Origin: Anaerolineales bacterium
GTDB lineage: Bacteria; Chloroflexota; Anaerolineae; Anaerolineales; Villigracilaceae
Assembly: GCA_013360875.1 (NCBI GenBank)
Contig: JABWAU010000016.1
Span: 1 to 44,319, forward strand
Direction: 5' to 3'
Length of the DNA stretch: 44,319 nt
Both the position numbers and the translations under genes were made by a program. A model generated the notes under the pieces. It worked only from the letters and a program-made list of their open reading frames with translations, was not told the origin of the DNA and searched no databases. Of the stretch, positions 1 through 22,228 are shown one piece after another. Numbering within the stretch: position 1 is the first letter of the stretch; every line of letters starts with the position of its first letter.

Positions 1-1157
1 ACCAATTGCGCCTCACGTCCCTGAAAATCCTCTTTGGATATGGTCACGATCACGAAACCGGCGTCGGGAGCCCACAATGCCTCCCACATGTTCGGGAAGG
101 TCTCAGGGCGCAGGACGACTCTGCCGGTGACGCCGTCCGGCGCGGAGCGAACAATTTGCAGTGGGGCGCGGTCAATAAATCCCTCTGTGTTCGGGACGCT
201 TGCGTAAAAGAAATATAATTGCCCATCGGGCGCAAGGAAGGGATTGTCGGCGACCTCGGCCGGGTTGGAATCGAAATCAGCGGAGAGCAGCGCGGTGACG
301 ACGCCGCTGGCGATGTCCACGCGCCAGAGACCGGCGTTGAACATGCCCATGTGTGGGCTGGCGGCATATAGAACGGAGCCATCGTCGCTGAGGTGGTAAT
401 CGCCGCAACAGATGATCGCGCCTTCGCCTCCGCTCAAGCGGGTCAATGCGTTCGAGGCGGGGTAATAGACGGCGGTGGAGGCGCCTTCGTAATAGCCGAG
501 CGTGACGAGCAGTTTGCTTCCATCGAGGGAGTATCCTTCGGGCCAGTACAGTTCGGATGGAATGAACAGCCCGCCGCCGACGTCGTTCCATTGGTCCTCG
601 ATCACGAGGTTGCTTGCACCGGTCAAGACGGAGTACAGATTCAACCCCTTGTGGCTGTATGCGATCGTTTGTCCGTCCGGCGAAAAAACGGGATTGCTAA
701 TCTTGCTCAGGTATGGATTATTCTCATCCACCGCGCCGCCGTCCCCAAGTATGCGCCTGTCGGAACCGTCCGCCTGGATGAGGAGCATTTGATTGTTCGA
801 AAGGTAAACAACGCTCCCGTCAAGGGAGGAAACGTCATAGTATTCGACCGGGTCAGGCTCGAAGGTGAGTTGTGCGATCGTTTCCCCGTCGTTTTCCATG
901 CGAAAGACCTGCGCGAGGCCGGCATCGTCGCTGCCCAAGTAATACAGACTGCGCGGGAGCAGGATGGAGGGGGATTCAGATTCCGGAGTCGCGCTGCTCG
1001 AAGAGTCCGGGGTCAGCGCTTGCATCGTCGCGGCGACGACGGTTGCCACCTGGTCTGATGGAATCTGTTCCGTGTCGCTGTTCGCAGGCAGGGAGCAAGC
1101 CAGAACGGCAAACACCAGGGTAATGTAACCAATAAGAGAACGAATACCTTTCTTCAT
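1..1157 (-). CDS. TolB-like beta-propeller lipoprotein (3' end outside window)
   Basis: This reading frame starts at ATG 1157 and stays open to the left edge, so about 385 residues are visible and the C-terminus is missing. The first 21 residues form a lipoprotein signal peptide: two lysines, a hydrophobic stretch, then a lipobox ending in Ala-Cys with Cys21 as the likely lipidated residue. A Ser/Thr-rich linker follows. The rest shows repeated motifs of the TolB/WD40-like propeller type, such as 'FSPDGQTIAYS', 'SLDGSVVYLS' and 'LSDDGSVLYAAS'. It is probably an exported, membrane-anchored propeller protein of unknown ligand. It is the last visible gene of the 4240-to-1 run, 94 bases downstream of the cyclic-di-AMP receptor-like gene, and may have its own promoter. 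Function beyond the fold is not evident. Confidence 0.85.
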   Translation of the reverse strand, partial: MKKGIRSLIGYITLVFAVLACSLPANSDTEQIPSDQVATVVAATMQALTPDSSSSATPESESPSILLPRSLYYLGSDDAGLAQVFRMENDGETIAQLTFEPDPVEYYDVSSLDGSVVYLSNNQMLLIQADGSDRRILGDGGAVDENNPYLSKISNPVFSPDGQTIAYSHKGLNLYSVLTGASNLVIEDQWNDVGGGLFIPSELYWPEGYSLDGSKLLVTLGYYEGASTAVYYPASNALTRLSGGEGAIICCGDYHLSDDGSVLYAASPHMGMFNAGLWRVDIASGVVTALLSADFDSNPAEVADNPFLAPDGQLYFFYASVPNTEGFIDRAPLQIVRSAPDGVTGRVVLRPETFPNMWEALWAPDAGFVIVTISKEDFQGREAQL

Positions 1158-1251: not shown

Positions 1252-1515
1252 TTACACCTGCTCGAACCGTTCCACCGGGACGACAAAAAGCGTGGCGCGC
1301 CTTTCGCCCGAAGGCAGGGGGGTCAATTTTGCGCGGATCAATTCCAGGGCAGACTCGAGGCGTTCGTCCCTCACGCCAAGCAGAAGCGTGACCACGCCGC
1401 TTCGCAGGAATCCGCCGGTGGAGGCGACGCGCGTGACGCGGTATTTGTCCGCGGTCAGCGCCTGGAGGACGTCGTCCGCGTCGTTGTCTTTGACGATGAG
1501 AATGACCATTTTCAT
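1252..1515 (-). CDS. PstA/DarA-like cyclic-di-AMP receptor (PII-fold), copy 2
   Basis: This 87-residue protein matches the cyclic-di-AMP receptor family (PstA/DarA, PF06153 type), which has a PII-like ferredoxin fold and binds c-di-AMP as a trimer. Seen in the sequence: the N-terminal strand 'MKMVILIVKDNDADDVLQAL', then the family signature 'ASTGGFLRSGVVTLLLGV' and the C-terminal strand 'ATLFVVPVERFEQV'. Known PstA proteins are about 109 residues, so this copy is short in the loop before the last strand. ATG 1515 is preceded by GAAGGAG at good spacing. The gene lies 68 bases downstream of a second, longer homologue and ends the set of PII-fold genes behind the antiporter. Ligand binding is inferred from the family. 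Confidence 0.85.
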   Translation of the reverse strand: MKMVILIVKDNDADDVLQALTADKYRVTRVASTGGFLRSGVVTLLLGVRDERLESALELIRAKLTPLPSGERRATLFVVPVERFEQV

Positions 1516-1583
1516 AATAATGCTCCTTCAGACAGATCGCGCTTCGACTTCGCGGCGCTTTCAGCGCCGCTCAGCGCGAAAGG

Positions 1584-1922
1584 TTAGATTTCCTCGAAAT
1601 GTTCGACCGGCAGGGCAAAAATGGTCGCGCCGCCCACGGTCACAGGAACAGGCGTCGGCATGGGAAGAGGCGAGCCCTCCAGCGGCATGGTCAGGTACTC
1701 GATGTGTTGTTTGCACGTTTCCCGCAAAACTCGAATCGCCTCCTCCTCCCTGCCTTCCTGCAGACCGATCAAGAGGGTGGCGTTGCGGCGACCAAGAAAA
1801 CCGCCCGCGCTGAAAAGGTACACCACAGGCTGGTCCAATTTTTCCAATGCGCGGGTCGCCTCATCCCGGTCCTGCTCCTGGACGACGGCAAGCATCAACA
1901 GTTTGATTTTGGAAACATCCAT
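1584..1922 (-). CDS. PstA/DarA-like cyclic-di-AMP receptor (PII-fold), copy 1
   Basis: This 112-residue protein is a second PstA/DarA-like PII-fold protein. The N-terminal strand 'KIKLLMLAVVQEQDRDEA' and the signature 'SAGGFLGRRNATLLIGL' match the family, with Ser-Ala replacing the usual Ser-Thr. The loop before the last strand is long and Pro-rich ('GSPLPMPTPVPVTVGGA'), which in PII-type proteins is where partner contacts usually lie. The frame is open upstream to 2039, but ATG 1922 is chosen because GGAGG sits 5 bases before it and homology begins there. It lies between a P-II-like gene and a shorter homologue. The two copies differ enough to suggest different partners or ligands; that is inference. 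Confidence 0.85.
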   Translation of the reverse strand: MDVSKIKLLMLAVVQEQDRDEATRALEKLDQPVVYLFSAGGFLGRRNATLLIGLQEGREEEAIRVLRETCKQHIEYLTMPLEGSPLPMPTPVPVTVGGATIFALPVEHFEEI

Positions 1923-1992
1923 ACGACCTCCAAAAAGACCGTTTGTAGGATAGTATACAGGATACCGGCGATGAGACAAGCGGTTCGACGAA

Positions 1993-2355
1993 TTATTCGG
2001 CAAATAAGGTCTCGTTCTCGCGCAGACCGTGCACCTCAAGCACAGGAAGCACGATCAGGATGCCGGTATGAGGCGCCTCCAGGGGACCGGTAATCGTTTC
2101 GGTGGCACGAATCAGTTTGGGGATGTCGAAATCGTCGGGGACCACGCTGAAGATTGTGCGATGCGTGCGCTCCTGCGTGCGCAACACCGTGCGGATGGAG
2201 GGGATCAGGGGCAGGTTGTCGTGTCCCGCCAATTGCCGGCCGATGCCGCTGCTATCCAGGATGGTGGCTCCCGTGACGCCCACACGCGCCCAGGCTTCGA
2301 GCGTCGCCATTGCCTTCCCTCCATCCGCCAGAACGAGAATGATCATTTTACTCAT
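1993..2355 (-). CDS. P-II-like signalling protein
   Basis: This 120-residue protein has the length and strand pattern of a GlnB/P-II-like protein: 'MSKMIILVLADGGKAMATLEAWARVGVTGATIL' at the N-terminus and 'GILIVLPVLEVHGL' at the C-terminus, with a 'SSGIGRQL' segment early. The canonical T-loop Tyr-51 uridylylation context is not obvious, so it is probably a PII-like sensor rather than classical GlnB. ATG 2355 overlaps the antiporter's end by 8 bases (2348-2355), so translation is probably coupled, and GGAAGG lies just upstream. Direct coupling suggests that it regulates the antiporter. PII-like proteins are known to control membrane transporters (GlnK-AmtB, SbtB-SbtA), but the ligand here is unknown. 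Confidence 0.75.
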   Translation of the reverse strand: MSKMIILVLADGGKAMATLEAWARVGVTGATILDSSGIGRQLAGHDNLPLIPSIRTVLRTQERTHRTIFSVVPDDFDIPKLIRATETITGPLEAPHTGILIVLPVLEVHGLRENETLFAE

Positions 2356-3595
2356 AGGATCCTTCCTTCCCAAAAGCCCATCTCAACAGGGGTGGAGTAA
2401 TAAGCGTTGTAACCAATACCACCAATACGATCACCGTGAATTTTTGCGCGGTAAGCAAACCCATTCCCTGTCCAACACCCGCAACGATCAAGCCGACCTC
2501 GCCGCGCGAGATCATGCCCACGCCCACGCGCAGCGCCTGGCGGTTGGAAAATCCCCCCAGGCGCGCTCCCAGCCCGCATCCAATGATCTTCGACGCGATG
2601 GCAACTACGATCAGAACCGCCGCGAGGAGTATAACGGACACCCCCAGGTCCCTGACGTTCGCCTGCAAGCCCACGCCCACCAGAAACAGAGGCACAAAAA
2701 AGGCGTAGTTCATGGTTTGCAGATCGCGCGTAATTTCTTCCCGCCAGTGGGTCTGCCCCAATCCGACGCCCGCGATGAAGGCTCCCGTGATCGCGGCGAT
2801 GCCGCCCACGAATTCCGCGCTCCAGGAAAAGAGCAGGGCGGAGACGATCACCAACGCCATCATGCCCTGGCTGATCGGAAGACGATTTGCCCATTCCGCA
2901 ATGCGAGGCAGGATCAGATAGCCGATCAAGCCCGACGCCAAAAGGGTCAGGATCATTCGCAGGATCACCACCCCCAGGTTTTCCCCTCCTCCCCCCACGA
3001 CGCTGACGAAAATGGAAAGCGAGAGAATGACCAGCACGTCGTCAACCACTGCGGCTCCGAGCAAAGCCATGCCTTCGGGAGTGCGCATCCGTTTCAACTC
3101 GATGAGGGTCTGCACAGAGATGCTCACGCTCGTCGCCGCCAGGACAATTCCCAGCAGGATGGATGAATTCTTCGAGTCAACAAAGGGCAACGCGGCGAAC
3201 GCCGTCAAAAGAATGGGCAGTATCATGCCGAACAAACCGGCCAGGAAAGCGGGACGCCCACTCTTGCGGAGGTCGTTCAATTCGGTCTCCAGTCCGGCGG
3301 AGAACATCAGAAATATCACGCCCAGTTGCGCCAATTGCAGGATGGTCCTCTCCGTGGCGCCGGATGGATCGTACAGAAAAGGGAGACGGAACAGGTCCAA
3401 CGCGGTGGGACCCAGCAAAAGACCCGCCATGAGTTCGCCCAGCACGGCAGGTTGACCGATCTTCACAGCCAGCGCGCCCGCAAGTTTGGCGCTGGCAATC
3501 AGAATCGCCAGCGCCAGAAGCAACGGCAACAGGCTGGAAGTTTCGCCCTCCGTTGAGGACAGGAGTCCGATGGAATGGAAAATTCCCATGTTCAT
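2348..3595 (-). CDS. CPA2-type cation/proton antiporter (Kef/NapA-like)
   Basis: This 415-residue membrane protein is rich in hydrophobic helices along its whole length. It belongs to the monovalent cation:proton antiporter-2 family, which exchanges Na+ or K+ for H+ across the cytoplasmic membrane. The early 'LAGALAVKIGQPAVLGELMAGLLLGP' segment and the later 'SRGEVGLIVA' motif are typical. It has no C-terminal RCK/TrkA-N domain, unlike KefB/KefC. It ends at the membrane domain ('FGKEGSYE'), and the next gene encodes a P-II-like protein in an 8-base overlap. The separate small proteins may supply the missing regulatory module. ATG 3595 is preferred to an in-frame TTG at 3598; ATG 3589 is also possible. 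The ion specificity cannot be read from the sequence. Confidence 0.9.
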   Translation of the reverse strand: MNMGIFHSIGLLSSTEGETSSLLPLLLALAILIASAKLAGALAVKIGQPAVLGELMAGLLLGPTALDLFRLPFLYDPSGATERTILQLAQLGVIFLMFSAGLETELNDLRKSGRPAFLAGLFGMILPILLTAFAALPFVDSKNSSILLGIVLAATSVSISVQTLIELKRMRTPEGMALLGAAVVDDVLVILSLSIFVSVVGGGGENLGVVILRMILTLLASGLIGYLILPRIAEWANRLPISQGMMALVIVSALLFSWSAEFVGGIAAITGAFIAGVGLGQTHWREEITRDLQTMNYAFFVPLFLVGVGLQANVRDLGVSVILLAAVLIVVAIASKIIGCGLGARLGGFSNRQALRVGVGMISRGEVGLIVAGVGQGMGLLTAQKFTVIVLVVLVTTLITPPLLRWAFGKEGSYE

Positions 3596-3667
3596 CAATG
3601 ACTCATCCCGGCGCCGCCGAGCCGTCGTCTCTCATGGCTGCACATTCCGTCACGCCTCGCCCTGGAC

Positions 3668-4240
3668 TCACTTTCTCTTTCTCCTGAAGAATTCCTCCCC
3701 CATTCCCGAAGAGCGTACGGGGAAAATGCCCTGTTGCACGGAGCGCAATTCCTCCACTGTGAAGAAGGCTTTGGGCGACACGTCCTGGATGATGCGAATG
3801 ACCTGTTCGAGTTCCCTGCGCATGACCACCGTATAGACCAGGATGACCGCCCCGCTCGCCCCCTGACCGTCCACAAAGGTCACACCATAGCCTTCTTCGC
3901 GCAGTCGTTCGACCAGGGAGTTTCCGTCCTTGGGGAGGATGGCGCGCACGACCAGCGTCCCGATGGCGAGTTTGTCCTCGATCACCATGCCGAAGAAATT
4001 CCCGACGGCGAACCCGGCAGCGTAGGCGAAATACGCCGCGAGGTTCCGCGCGCCGCCCACGATCTGCGAAACGACCGTGATCCAGATCAGCACTTCCACA
4101 AAACCGAGGAGGGGAGCCAACGCTTTCCTGCCGCGCGAGAGGAAGATGATCCGCATGGTGCCAAGAGTCACGTCTGTGACGCGCGCCAGGAAAACGATCA
4201 ATGGCAGGATGACCCAGGTATACCAATCGAATGTTTCCAT
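3668..4240 (-). CDS. UPF0316 family membrane protein (DUF5698 plus DUF2179)
   Basis: This 190-residue protein matches the UPF0316 family. The N-terminal half has about three membrane helices ('WVILPLIVFLARVTDVTLGTM', 'LLGFVEVLIWITVVSQIVGG', 'LAAYFAYAAGFAVGNFFGM'). The soluble C-terminal DUF2179 domain ends in 'ISPKAFFTVEELRSVQQGI'-type sequence ('VSPKAFFTVEELRSVQQGIF' here). DUF2179 is a small ferredoxin/PII-like fold, also found on YitT proteins, some of which contact c-di-AMP; any such role here is inference. The gene is first in the run that continues with the antiporter, 72 bases downstream. A TATAAT box ends exactly 6 bases before its ATG and no Shine-Dalgarno sequence is visible, suggesting a leaderless mRNA. 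Confidence 0.85.
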   Translation of the reverse strand: METFDWYTWVILPLIVFLARVTDVTLGTMRIIFLSRGRKALAPLLGFVEVLIWITVVSQIVGGARNLAAYFAYAAGFAVGNFFGMVIEDKLAIGTLVVRAILPKDGNSLVERLREEGYGVTFVDGQGASGAVILVYTVVMRRELEQVIRIIQDVSPKAFFTVEELRSVQQGIFPVRSSGMGEEFFRRKRK

Positions 4241-4332: not shown

Positions 4333-5826
4333 CTATAAACTCCTGCTGTTCCCCATGGTCGGGAGGATCCACTCGTCGTCGTAGAACTCGCGCAGGATAC
4401 GGTAGTAATACAACGCCTCCTTGTTTTGCAGGTTGTAGTTCCAATCCTTTTTGAGGCGGTCGCGCTCGAGGGTGAATTCCTCATCCGTAATTTTTTCGAC
4501 AGCCTCCTGGGCGATCAACTCGGAGGAACCGGCGCCTTTCGAGAACTTTACCTTGGGGCGATTGACGATCTCCTGCGGCAGTTCATTCGCGAAAGATTGG
4601 CGCAGCAGGGCTTTGGGAACGCGTTCGTGGTGAAGTTTCCAGGCGGCGGGAATGCCCATCGCAAGCGAAACAGATTTCACGTCCAAAAAAGGGACGCGGG
4701 CTTCCAATCCAAAAGCCATGGACATTCTATCGGCGCGCTGCAGGTTGGTGTTGTGAAGCGCGTTCGTGATGTGGAGCATCTCGTCCTGCAACTCGTCGGG
4801 CGTTTCATACCGCGCGAGATAATCGTACCCCGCGTAGACCTCGTCCGCGCCCTCGCCTGTGAGGATGACCTTGACGTGTTCGGAGGCAAGTTTGGCGAGA
4901 AAATAATTCGGGATGGCGCTTCGCACCAACGCGGGATCGAACGACTCGAGATAATAGAGGACGTCCGGCAGCGCCTCGATCATCTCCCGCGTGTCGTAGA
5001 CGTATTCGTGATGAACCGTCTCGAGATAACTGGACATCTGCCGCGCCGCCTCGAGATCGGGACTCCCTTCGACTCCCACCGCGAACGAATGCAGGTTCTC
5101 CGCTTCCTCGCGCGCCAACGCGGTGACAATGCTGCTGTCCAGCCCGCCGCTAAGACTGACTCCCACCGGCACGTCGGCAAGCAGGCGTTTGTACACCGCG
5201 CTCCGCAGCGTAGATTTGATCTCCGGGATCGCGTCGAGTTCGCTCCCGTCGAACGGGCGGATGGTCTCTTCGAGTCGGTAGTATTTGCGCCAGCCGAGCC
5301 GCGAGTGATACCAATGCCCGGCGGGAAACTCCTTGATGCGTTCCACATGCCCGACCAGAGCCTTGATCTCGGAGGCGAAGAGGAATTTTTTGCCGTCGTT
5401 GCCCCTGCCGTAATATAAAGGCTTGATGCCGAGCGGGTCGCGCGCCAGGAAGATCTCGCCTTTATGCTCGATGGCGAACGAGAACATGCCGTCCAAAAGT
5501 TTTACAAATTTGGGTCCTAGCCTGCGGTATAGATGAAGCAGTACTTCGGTGTCCGAATGCGTTTTGACGCGCAGGTCGGGAAGATATTTCCGTTTGAGTT
5601 CGCGATAGTTGTAGATCTCCCCGTTGAAAACAATGACTGTTCCTTGATACTCCATCGGTTGATGTCCGCCTTCCAGGTCCAGGATGGCAAGGCGGGTATG
5701 ACCGAAGGTCCCATTGGGGACTTGCATTACGCCGTGACCATCCGGTCCGCGATGCGAGATGGTCTTGATCATTTTTTCGACAGTTTGACTTGCTGGTTCC
5801 TGAAAAACTCCAGCGATTCCACACAT
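4333..5826 (-). CDS. asnB: Asparagine synthase (glutamine-hydrolysing)
   Basis: This 497-residue enzyme makes asparagine from aspartate, ATP and glutamine. The N-terminal glutamine amidotransferase domain starts with the processed catalytic Cys2 ('MCGIAGVF') and has 'SHRGPDG' (24-30) and 'FNGEIYNY' (68-75). The synthetase domain has the PP-loop 'SGGLDSS' (226-232) for ATP and 'GEGADE' (324-329). It is shorter than E. coli AsnB (554) and belongs to the compact form found in many bacteria and archaea. ATG 5826 is fixed by the Cys2 rule and by AAAGGAG upstream; a CATAAT -10 candidate lies at 5848-5843. It follows the opine-dehydrogenase-like gene by 140 bases on the same strand. Related synthases also amidate other substrates, so a specialised role cannot be excluded. 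Confidence 0.93.
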   Translation of the reverse strand: MCGIAGVFQEPASQTVEKMIKTISHRGPDGHGVMQVPNGTFGHTRLAILDLEGGHQPMEYQGTVIVFNGEIYNYRELKRKYLPDLRVKTHSDTEVLLHLYRRLGPKFVKLLDGMFSFAIEHKGEIFLARDPLGIKPLYYGRGNDGKKFLFASEIKALVGHVERIKEFPAGHWYHSRLGWRKYYRLEETIRPFDGSELDAIPEIKSTLRSAVYKRLLADVPVGVSLSGGLDSSIVTALAREEAENLHSFAVGVEGSPDLEAARQMSSYLETVHHEYVYDTREMIEALPDVLYYLESFDPALVRSAIPNYFLAKLASEHVKVILTGEGADEVYAGYDYLARYETPDELQDEMLHITNALHNTNLQRADRMSMAFGLEARVPFLDVKSVSLAMGIPAAWKLHHERVPKALLRQSFANELPQEIVNRPKVKFSKGAGSSELIAQEAVEKITDEEFTLERDRLKKDWNYNLQNKEALYYYRILREFYDDEWILPTMGNSRSL

Positions 5827-21837: not shown

Positions 21838-22221
21838 GGGGATGACAGGCTTCGACGGAAGAGGCTGGTCCCGGAATGCGAGCCGAGAGGCGCCGAACTC
21901 GTAAACTCAGCGCAAAAAATCAAGTGCCAACCGCACTTCCTATGCCGCTATGCCTCTCGCCGCGTAAGCGATGAGACCATAACGGTCAACATCCACAGAT
22001 GATGTTGCGTCCGCCGGCACCCCTCTCCACCGGGTGACGGATCGGGCGAGACAAAGGTGGAGTGCCGCGCACGACGCCGCTACATGCGCGAAAGACCAGC
22101 GGCTGGTCGCAGGGAGTTCCTGTCGGACGAGACCCCTGCGATGACGAATCTCGACCGACTACGCTCGTAGATTTCCGAGGGTCGAATCTTTCGGACCCGG
22201 GTTCGATTCCCGGCATCTCCA
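21838..22221 (+). ncRNA. ssrA: Transfer-messenger RNA (tmRNA)
   Basis: This RNA rescues stalled ribosomes. The 5' end GGGGATG (21838-21844) pairs with CATCTCC (22214-22220) to form the tRNA-like acceptor stem, with A22221 as the discriminator. CCA is not encoded (the next bases are CTG). The T arm GGGTTCGATTCCC precedes the 3' end. The tag frame runs from resume codon GCC at 21926 to TAA at 21965-21967, giving the 13-residue peptide ANRTSYAAMPLAA, which ends in the Leu-Ala-Ala degradation signal. The 384-base length is normal. Both the 5' extended -10 promoter and the 3' terminator are present. Confidence 0.96.
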
Positions 22222-22228
22222 CTGAATG

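Follow-up and report, generated by a model that had tools for sequence, protein, structure and literature searches.

Paired PstA-like proteins with complementary ligand half-sites encoded behind cation transporters or putative solute genes in Villigracilaceae

We analysed a window of 44,319 nucleotides, contig JABWAU010000016.1 (GenBank assembly GCA_013360875.1) of an Anaerolineales bacterium of the family Villigracilaceae, which carries near its first letter an operon for a cation/proton antiporter and two small PstA-like proteins, hereafter A and B. All genes of the operon lie on the − strand, in the order UPF0316 membrane protein, antiporter, PII-fold protein, PstA-like A, PstA-like B and propeller lipoprotein. 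A (1584..1922, 112 amino acids) and the short B (1252..1515, 87 amino acids) score 72.2 and 78.5 bits, respectively, against the CdAMP_rec profile, for which the cut-off is 27 bits, and B aligns to positions 1-63 of its 109. On the NCBIfam DarA equivalog model NF058593 (cut-off 140 bits) both fall below the threshold, A with 78.5 bits and B with 75.5 bits; judged by these scores, they are best classed as DarA relatives and not as DarA equivalogs.

The antiporter (2348..3598, −) matches PF00999 (Na_H_Exchanger) with 197.8 bits (cut-off 26.2). Since this is its sole Pfam domain, we describe it as lacking a C-terminal RCK domain, in agreement with an earlier note on this DNA; the TrkA_C matches in the same genome are all on other contigs. 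Its top NCBIfam row is the CPA2 subfamily TIGR00932, with 165.8 bits for a cut-off of 238.3, and we call it CPA2-like. The gene product that follows (1993..2355, −; Pfam row 1993-2358) stays below the Pfam P-II cut-off (20 versus 25 bits). Its AlphaFold2 (AF2) model has a predicted local distance difference test score (pLDDT) of 77.6, and the top match of this model is 2j9d_J in Foldseek (E 4e-6) and 2v5h_J in VIA (Z 12.1, root-mean-square deviation 4.0 over 93 residues). The structures nearest to the model are PII/GlnK, and the protein is thus predicted to have a PII fold. The antiporter stop codon lies at 2348-2350, and a PII-gene ATG at 2353-2355 would give the 8-base overlap described earlier, but the N-termini of relatives suit the ATG at 2344-2346 better, which leaves a 1-base gap and no overlap. 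At the ends of the operon are the UPF0316 membrane protein (3668..4240, −; Pfam DUF5698 and a C-terminal DUF2179; NCBIfam NF003191, 228.9 bits, cut-off 179) and the TolB-like propeller lipoprotein (3..1157, −; PD40), which runs off the window end and frequently follows the A-B pair in relatives. Pfam, NCBIfam and the fold search together bear out the gene order proposed earlier from UPF0316 to the second PstA-like protein. An asparagine synthase gene precedes UPF0316 in the window (4333-5826, −) and likewise at six of the other loci, here given L numbers (L014, L050, L062, L122, L130 and L162).

The pair is not confined to this operon. Within the window's family, PF06153 matches are present in 142 of the 150 genomes searched and in all 88 good genomes, with one match in three of the 142 and two to six in the remainder; adjacency of A and B was checked in individually read loci and not in every positive genome. 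Two adjacent matches occur in 7/7 genomes examined from two sister families (f2 and f3). Phylum-wide, matches occur in 183 of 301 genomes, and those listed from beyond the order score far higher, at one to five per genome. The gene order on which the earlier note was built is retained in relatives, so the reading survives the check on conservation that the note itself had set. Two features go beyond that note: the lipoprotein gene after B, and a second A-B-lipoprotein set in the window's own genome (locus L005; lipoprotein 1302-2534, −). This second set follows other transporters, namely a CitMHS/ArsB permease with a CBS protein, plus DUF190, CrcB and NhaA; the last three are named by eye, and the name CrcB fits the fluoride riboswitch found ahead of that gene.

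We compared A and B with the ligand site of Staphylococcus aureus PstA. According to the accessible text of PMC4316997, this protein binds cyclic di-AMP (c-di-AMP) between two subunits, with R26, T28, G47 and Q108 on side 1 and F36, L37, N41 and F99 on side 2; T28A and the change of GGFL to AAAA leave no measurable dissociation constant, and N41A gives 9.6 uM. In a first residue set of 42 A, 54 B and 14 fused A domains, A keeps GGF and N41 in 42/42, with T28 in 21/42 and R26 in 2/42. B keeps T28 in 54/54, R26 in 52/54 and F36 in 51/54, with N41 in 16/54; V takes the place of N41 in 30/54, and GG94-95 is changed to K or R (46/54) followed by R (46/54). The fused A domains resemble A in their side 2 (GGF 14/14, N41 13/14), with T28 in 3/14 and R26 in 0/14.

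We then scored a site as complete when T28 on side 1 meets GF35-36 and N41 on side 2, using 80 distinct A-B pairs that were left from 107 after removal of identical ones. Some of these pairs had been chosen for long frames, and odd rows are retained in the set (the second pair of L028, in which both members are B-like, and the long branches L033, L104, L105 and L107). Side 1 of B combined with side 2 of A is complete in 76 pairs and the reverse combination in 7; A alone is complete in 36 and B alone in 22, and T28 is present in B in 80/80. With Q108 also required, the values are 70, 6, 26 and 18, respectively. We dropped Q108 as a half-site marker, since none of the 33 PstAs from other Chloroflexota has Q there (R in 28, K in 4 and P in 1). 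As a control, T28, GF and N41 are all present in 33/33 distinct PstAs of other Chloroflexota (36 loci), which are mostly top-scoring matches and hence biased to typical ones. On quick trees with few resolved forks, loss of T28 in A takes 8 changes, 3 of them forced by starred branches, and loss of N41 in B also takes 8, with 2 so forced. The ligand half-sites of A and B therefore diverge in complementary fashion: the two copies are divergent, as the earlier note had it, but the difference is not just one of loops, since opposite halves of the ligand site are retained. In the window pair, A keeps GGF and N41 and has V at 28, B keeps R26 and T28 and has V at 41, and only the combination of both proteins yields a complete site. 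From these substitutions, neither window protein would be expected to bind c-di-AMP well as a homotrimer, and with each copy incomplete the prediction of a mixed pocket is sharpest here.

To describe the surroundings of the pair, we mapped 59 loci with large flanks and, for 49 loci of the window's family with 53 A domains, classed the gene immediately upstream of A. This position is taken by a CPA2 antiporter, with or without the PII gene, in 14 cases, an MGH1-like hydrolase in 13, a CPA1 antiporter fused to A (CPA1::A) in 11 and an ArsB/CitMHS permease in 6; the rest are a USP-GpgS gene (3), an unfused CPA1 (1), the B of a preceding pair (1) and other or none (4). Fusions are over-represented among the 53, since loci L050-L060 were picked mainly for their long frames or high number of matches. 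The other 39 A domains give CPA2 13, MGH1 11, ArsB 6, USP-GpgS 3, fused 1, unfused CPA1 1 and other or none 4; they are non-random too, many coming from one genus (g9) and all from higher-scoring PF06153 places. Among the last four, L069, L135 and L137 have an MGH1-like gene beyond intervening genes, and L111 shows neither arrangement. At L069, and also at L016 and L020, a putative cytosine methyltransferase and a Vsr endonuclease (by eye) are inserted between the MGH1-like gene and A. Exchange at an equivalent position is seen within genus g3, where genome G002 has CPA1::A (L051), G068 has NhaA (L161), G074 has CBS-ArsB (L162) and G027 (L111) has none of these. What precedes the A-B pair in this family is thus one of several interchangeable cation transporters or a putative compatible-solute gene. 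Downstream, a lipoprotein directly follows B in 26/49 cases, and the propeller lipoprotein stays with A-B across differing transporters. In family f2 (L100-L104 and L106) a small membrane-protein gene comes after B; that of L103 is DUF4013, and the others are alike in length only.

The solute genes deserve a closer description. The upstream blocks of relatives encode a USP domain fused to glucosyl-3-phosphoglycerate synthase (GpgS; L068 2616-4424 +, L062 7232-9049 −), and the L068 protein scores 384.4 bits against NF010496, above its cut-off of 262, with MpgS/GpgS as PDB relatives (best E 4.9e-72). Below their cut-offs are a glycosyltransferase resembling mannosylglucosylglycerate synthase (224 bits, cut-off 640) and a sucrose-phosphorylase-like GH13 enzyme (210.5 bits, cut-off 334.4); Na+/Ca2+ exchangers are also encoded. 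The window's genome has its GpgS-type gene elsewhere (59% identity). These annotations read as a putative osmoadaptation cassette, which is consistent with the control of K+ and osmolytes by c-di-AMP. For the MGH1-like hydrolase, searches of the PDB at E 0.001 and of NCBIfam at 1e-5 were both without a match, and a role in solute metabolism is our guess from the Pfam name. According to the abstract of PMC4686210, c-di-AMP is bound by the USP domain of KdpD, so by analogy the USP-GpgS enzyme could sense it too.

Pair and transporter are also linked by gene fusion. Of the 80 distinct pairs, 14 have A as the C-terminal portion of a CPA1 Na+/H+ antiporter, with a free B behind it; L059 is counted here although its antiporter part is split over two frames, and several fused A proteins are truncated by the end of a short locus. 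Pfam places Na_H_Exchanger and CdAMP_rec within one open reading frame at L039, L051 and L011, and the L057 fusion reaches 332 bits on TIGR00831 (cut-off 279.6) and also matches the DarA profile. In an alignment of 11 fusions, a linker of ~110 residues joins the membrane domain to the PstA domain. In the A-domain tree, 13 fused A proteins cluster and L051, a type seen in one genome only, falls within the free ones; starred branches make two changes of the fused label necessary. We did not accept a long frame by itself as evidence of fusion. Long frames over PstA in genomes G332, G269, G324, G172 and G177 of other classes were rejected because by eye they look like GC-rich read-through ahead of an ordinary PstA start. 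The natural antiporter::PstA fusions point to a physical link, in which A would be the transporter-bound member of the pair.

The window's genome has one diadenylate cyclase, and the enzyme is found in 60/61 family genomes searched, the sole miss being a genome that is 65% complete. No c-di-AMP riboswitch reached the cmscan gathering score in the window or in L005, L050, L051, L062, L066, L128 and L132. The matches in these eight sources are a full-length tmRNA gene in the window (21838-22224 +, 167.5 bits in Rfam, ordinary) and fluoride riboswitches in L005 (5981-6040 −), L128 (7672-7731 −) and L132 (6784-6843 −). In these three genomes, the fluoride riboswitches head a stretch of crcB, DUF190, CBS, ArsB, in part CPA2 and PII, then A, B and lipoprotein, and fluoride might also switch on that stretch.

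We propose, tentatively and as an account that may well fall short, that A and B combine in a mixed trimer of PII type, which detects c-di-AMP and gates the adjacent transporter. A and B would be co-evolved partners of PstA/DarA type, assembled into one trimer in which B supplies side 1 and A side 2, so that a complete pocket would exist solely at the B1/A2 interface. Whether the composition is A2B or AB2, one of three interfaces would be of this kind, giving one pocket per trimer. Antiporters of this family are dimers, so two A domains could make up a trimer with one free B. The trimer would dock on a membrane cation/proton transporter or be tethered to it; binding of c-di-AMP would then alter transport activity and thereby adjust Na+/K+ and pH under osmotic stress. 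For the window operon, the RCK-less CPA2-like antiporter would be the target, with the PII-fold protein as an additional sensor or adaptor. The one-sided loss in both partners is most simply explained if the interface of B side 1 and A side 2 matters, that is, by a mixed trimer. The earlier idea that separate small sensors gate a CPA2 antiporter gains from the conserved order, the lack of an RCK domain, the cyclase and the fusions, but the pair is not specific to that antiporter type, because ArsB/CitMHS, CPA1, NhaA and putative solute genes precede it elsewhere; the earlier reading of the operon is partly right and too narrow.

A more specific and rather doubtful form of this proposal is that gene duplication made two half-receptors, A with one half of the pocket and the transporter contact, B with the other half and without the long effector loop. 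Here c-di-AMP would bind once, at the B/A interface, and glue B onto an antiporter dimer that provides two A domains, thereby building the regulatory trimer on the transporter; in the window the PII-fold protein might be the third subunit. If this form is true, cation/proton antiporters would be the missing target class of PstA/DarA.

Several observations weigh against the mixed, transporter-bound trimer. First, the f2 and f3 pairs (L100-L106) have a reference transporter directly upstream in 0/7 cases, and 2/7 instead follow an MGH1-like gene; in the window's family, 16/53 A genes are directly behind putative solute enzymes and not transporters. Second, T28 is retained in 39/80 A proteins, the 36 A proteins noted above are complete alone, the B1/A2 site is incomplete in 4/80 pairs, and the rows of these counts are related by descent. 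In fused systems, B is complete alone in 11/14, so homotrimers may work there. Finally, in genome G094 (L011/L050) CBS and ArsB come after the fused A in place of a B of its own, and the AF2 single-chain model of a fusion has a mean pLDDT of 62.4, too low for use.

The variety of upstream genes, including the GpgS-type synthase and MGH1-like hydrolases, and the sister-family pairs behind no recognised transporter would also suit a shared osmotic regulon only. Both proteins would then be general sensors of c-di-AMP with other, soluble targets, and would lie beside transporters and solute genes because all of these are co-expressed under salt stress. We regard this as unlikely, in view of the natural CPA1::A fusions, whose label changes twice on the tree. 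To a similar degree, we doubt that B alone is the sensor, as a homotrimer, and A a degenerate, ligand-free adaptor with the transporter contact and no part in a mixed trimer. The invariant T28 of B and its 22 self-complete copies, among them those 11 behind fusions, would fit. However, N41 is lost in 58/80 B, and the same position when mutated weakens binding by S. aureus PstA (accessible text of PMC4316997); moreover, A retains GF and N41 in 76/80, loss and retention being opposite in the partners. Sensing of another nucleotide (AMP, ADP, ATP or similar) by the pair, as in other PII-like proteins, is suggested by V at 41 and the K/R changes at GG94-95 in B and by an adjoining PII-fold protein that resembles nucleotide-binding PII proteins, but it is improbable given T28 and the GGF loop retained on matching sides and the nearly universal cyclase.

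For the mixed trimer, the context in the literature is as follows. The binding partners of PstA/DarA, whose structures date from 2014-2015, were called unknown as late as December 2025 in the accessible text of PMC12802241, with similar statements in that of PMC4316997 and PMC7900238; the CPA1::PstA fusions and the conserved transporter-PstA-PstA order are therefore a direct lead and a testable answer. If true, the complementary half-sites would clearly exemplify the conversion of a homomeric messenger receptor into a mixed one, and c-di-AMP would be tied to Na+/H+ antiport, perhaps also to glucosylglycerate-type solutes, in Chloroflexota. A search of titles and abstracts, which leaves most subscription journals outside its coverage, gave no paper on a PstA::antiporter fusion or a two-gene mixed PstA trimer, and 0 papers on Anaerolineae together with c-di-AMP. 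As far as these searches reach, fusion to a transporter, a receptor divided over two genes with opposite half-sites and a connection with an osmolyte cassette are new.

Among known systems, PstA/DarA, CpaA, SbtB-SbtA and GlnK-AmtB are the nearest in mechanism. Synechocystis NhaS2 and NhaS5, putative c-di-AMP receptors, also tie Na+/H+ antiport to c-di-AMP; the accessible text of PMC10117731 names no PstA domain or partner for them. In SbtB-SbtA and GlnK-AmtB, as we propose here, small PII-fold trimers are encoded beside a membrane transporter on which they act, and SbtB is linked to c-di-AMP (accessible text of PMC10117731). A GlnK-AmtB structure is among the fold-search matches of the window PII-fold protein. 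SbtB and GlnK are, however, homotrimers on trimeric partners and not PstA-type, whereas antiporters of this family are dimers. CpaA, named in the accessible text of PMC4316997, and other RCK-gated targets share with our proposal the action of c-di-AMP on a cation/proton antiporter; here there is no RCK domain, and the sensor would be a PstA-type protein or domain. PstA/DarA itself (PDB 4d3g, 4d3h, 4rle, 4rww and 4wk1) belongs to the same sequence family, and its GGF loop and ligand residues are shared out between A and B. In the accessible descriptions it is a single protein that forms a homotrimer with three equivalent sites, and no partner of it is known; here, in contrast, two genes carry opposite half-sites, and the pair is linked to a transporter and sometimes fused to one.

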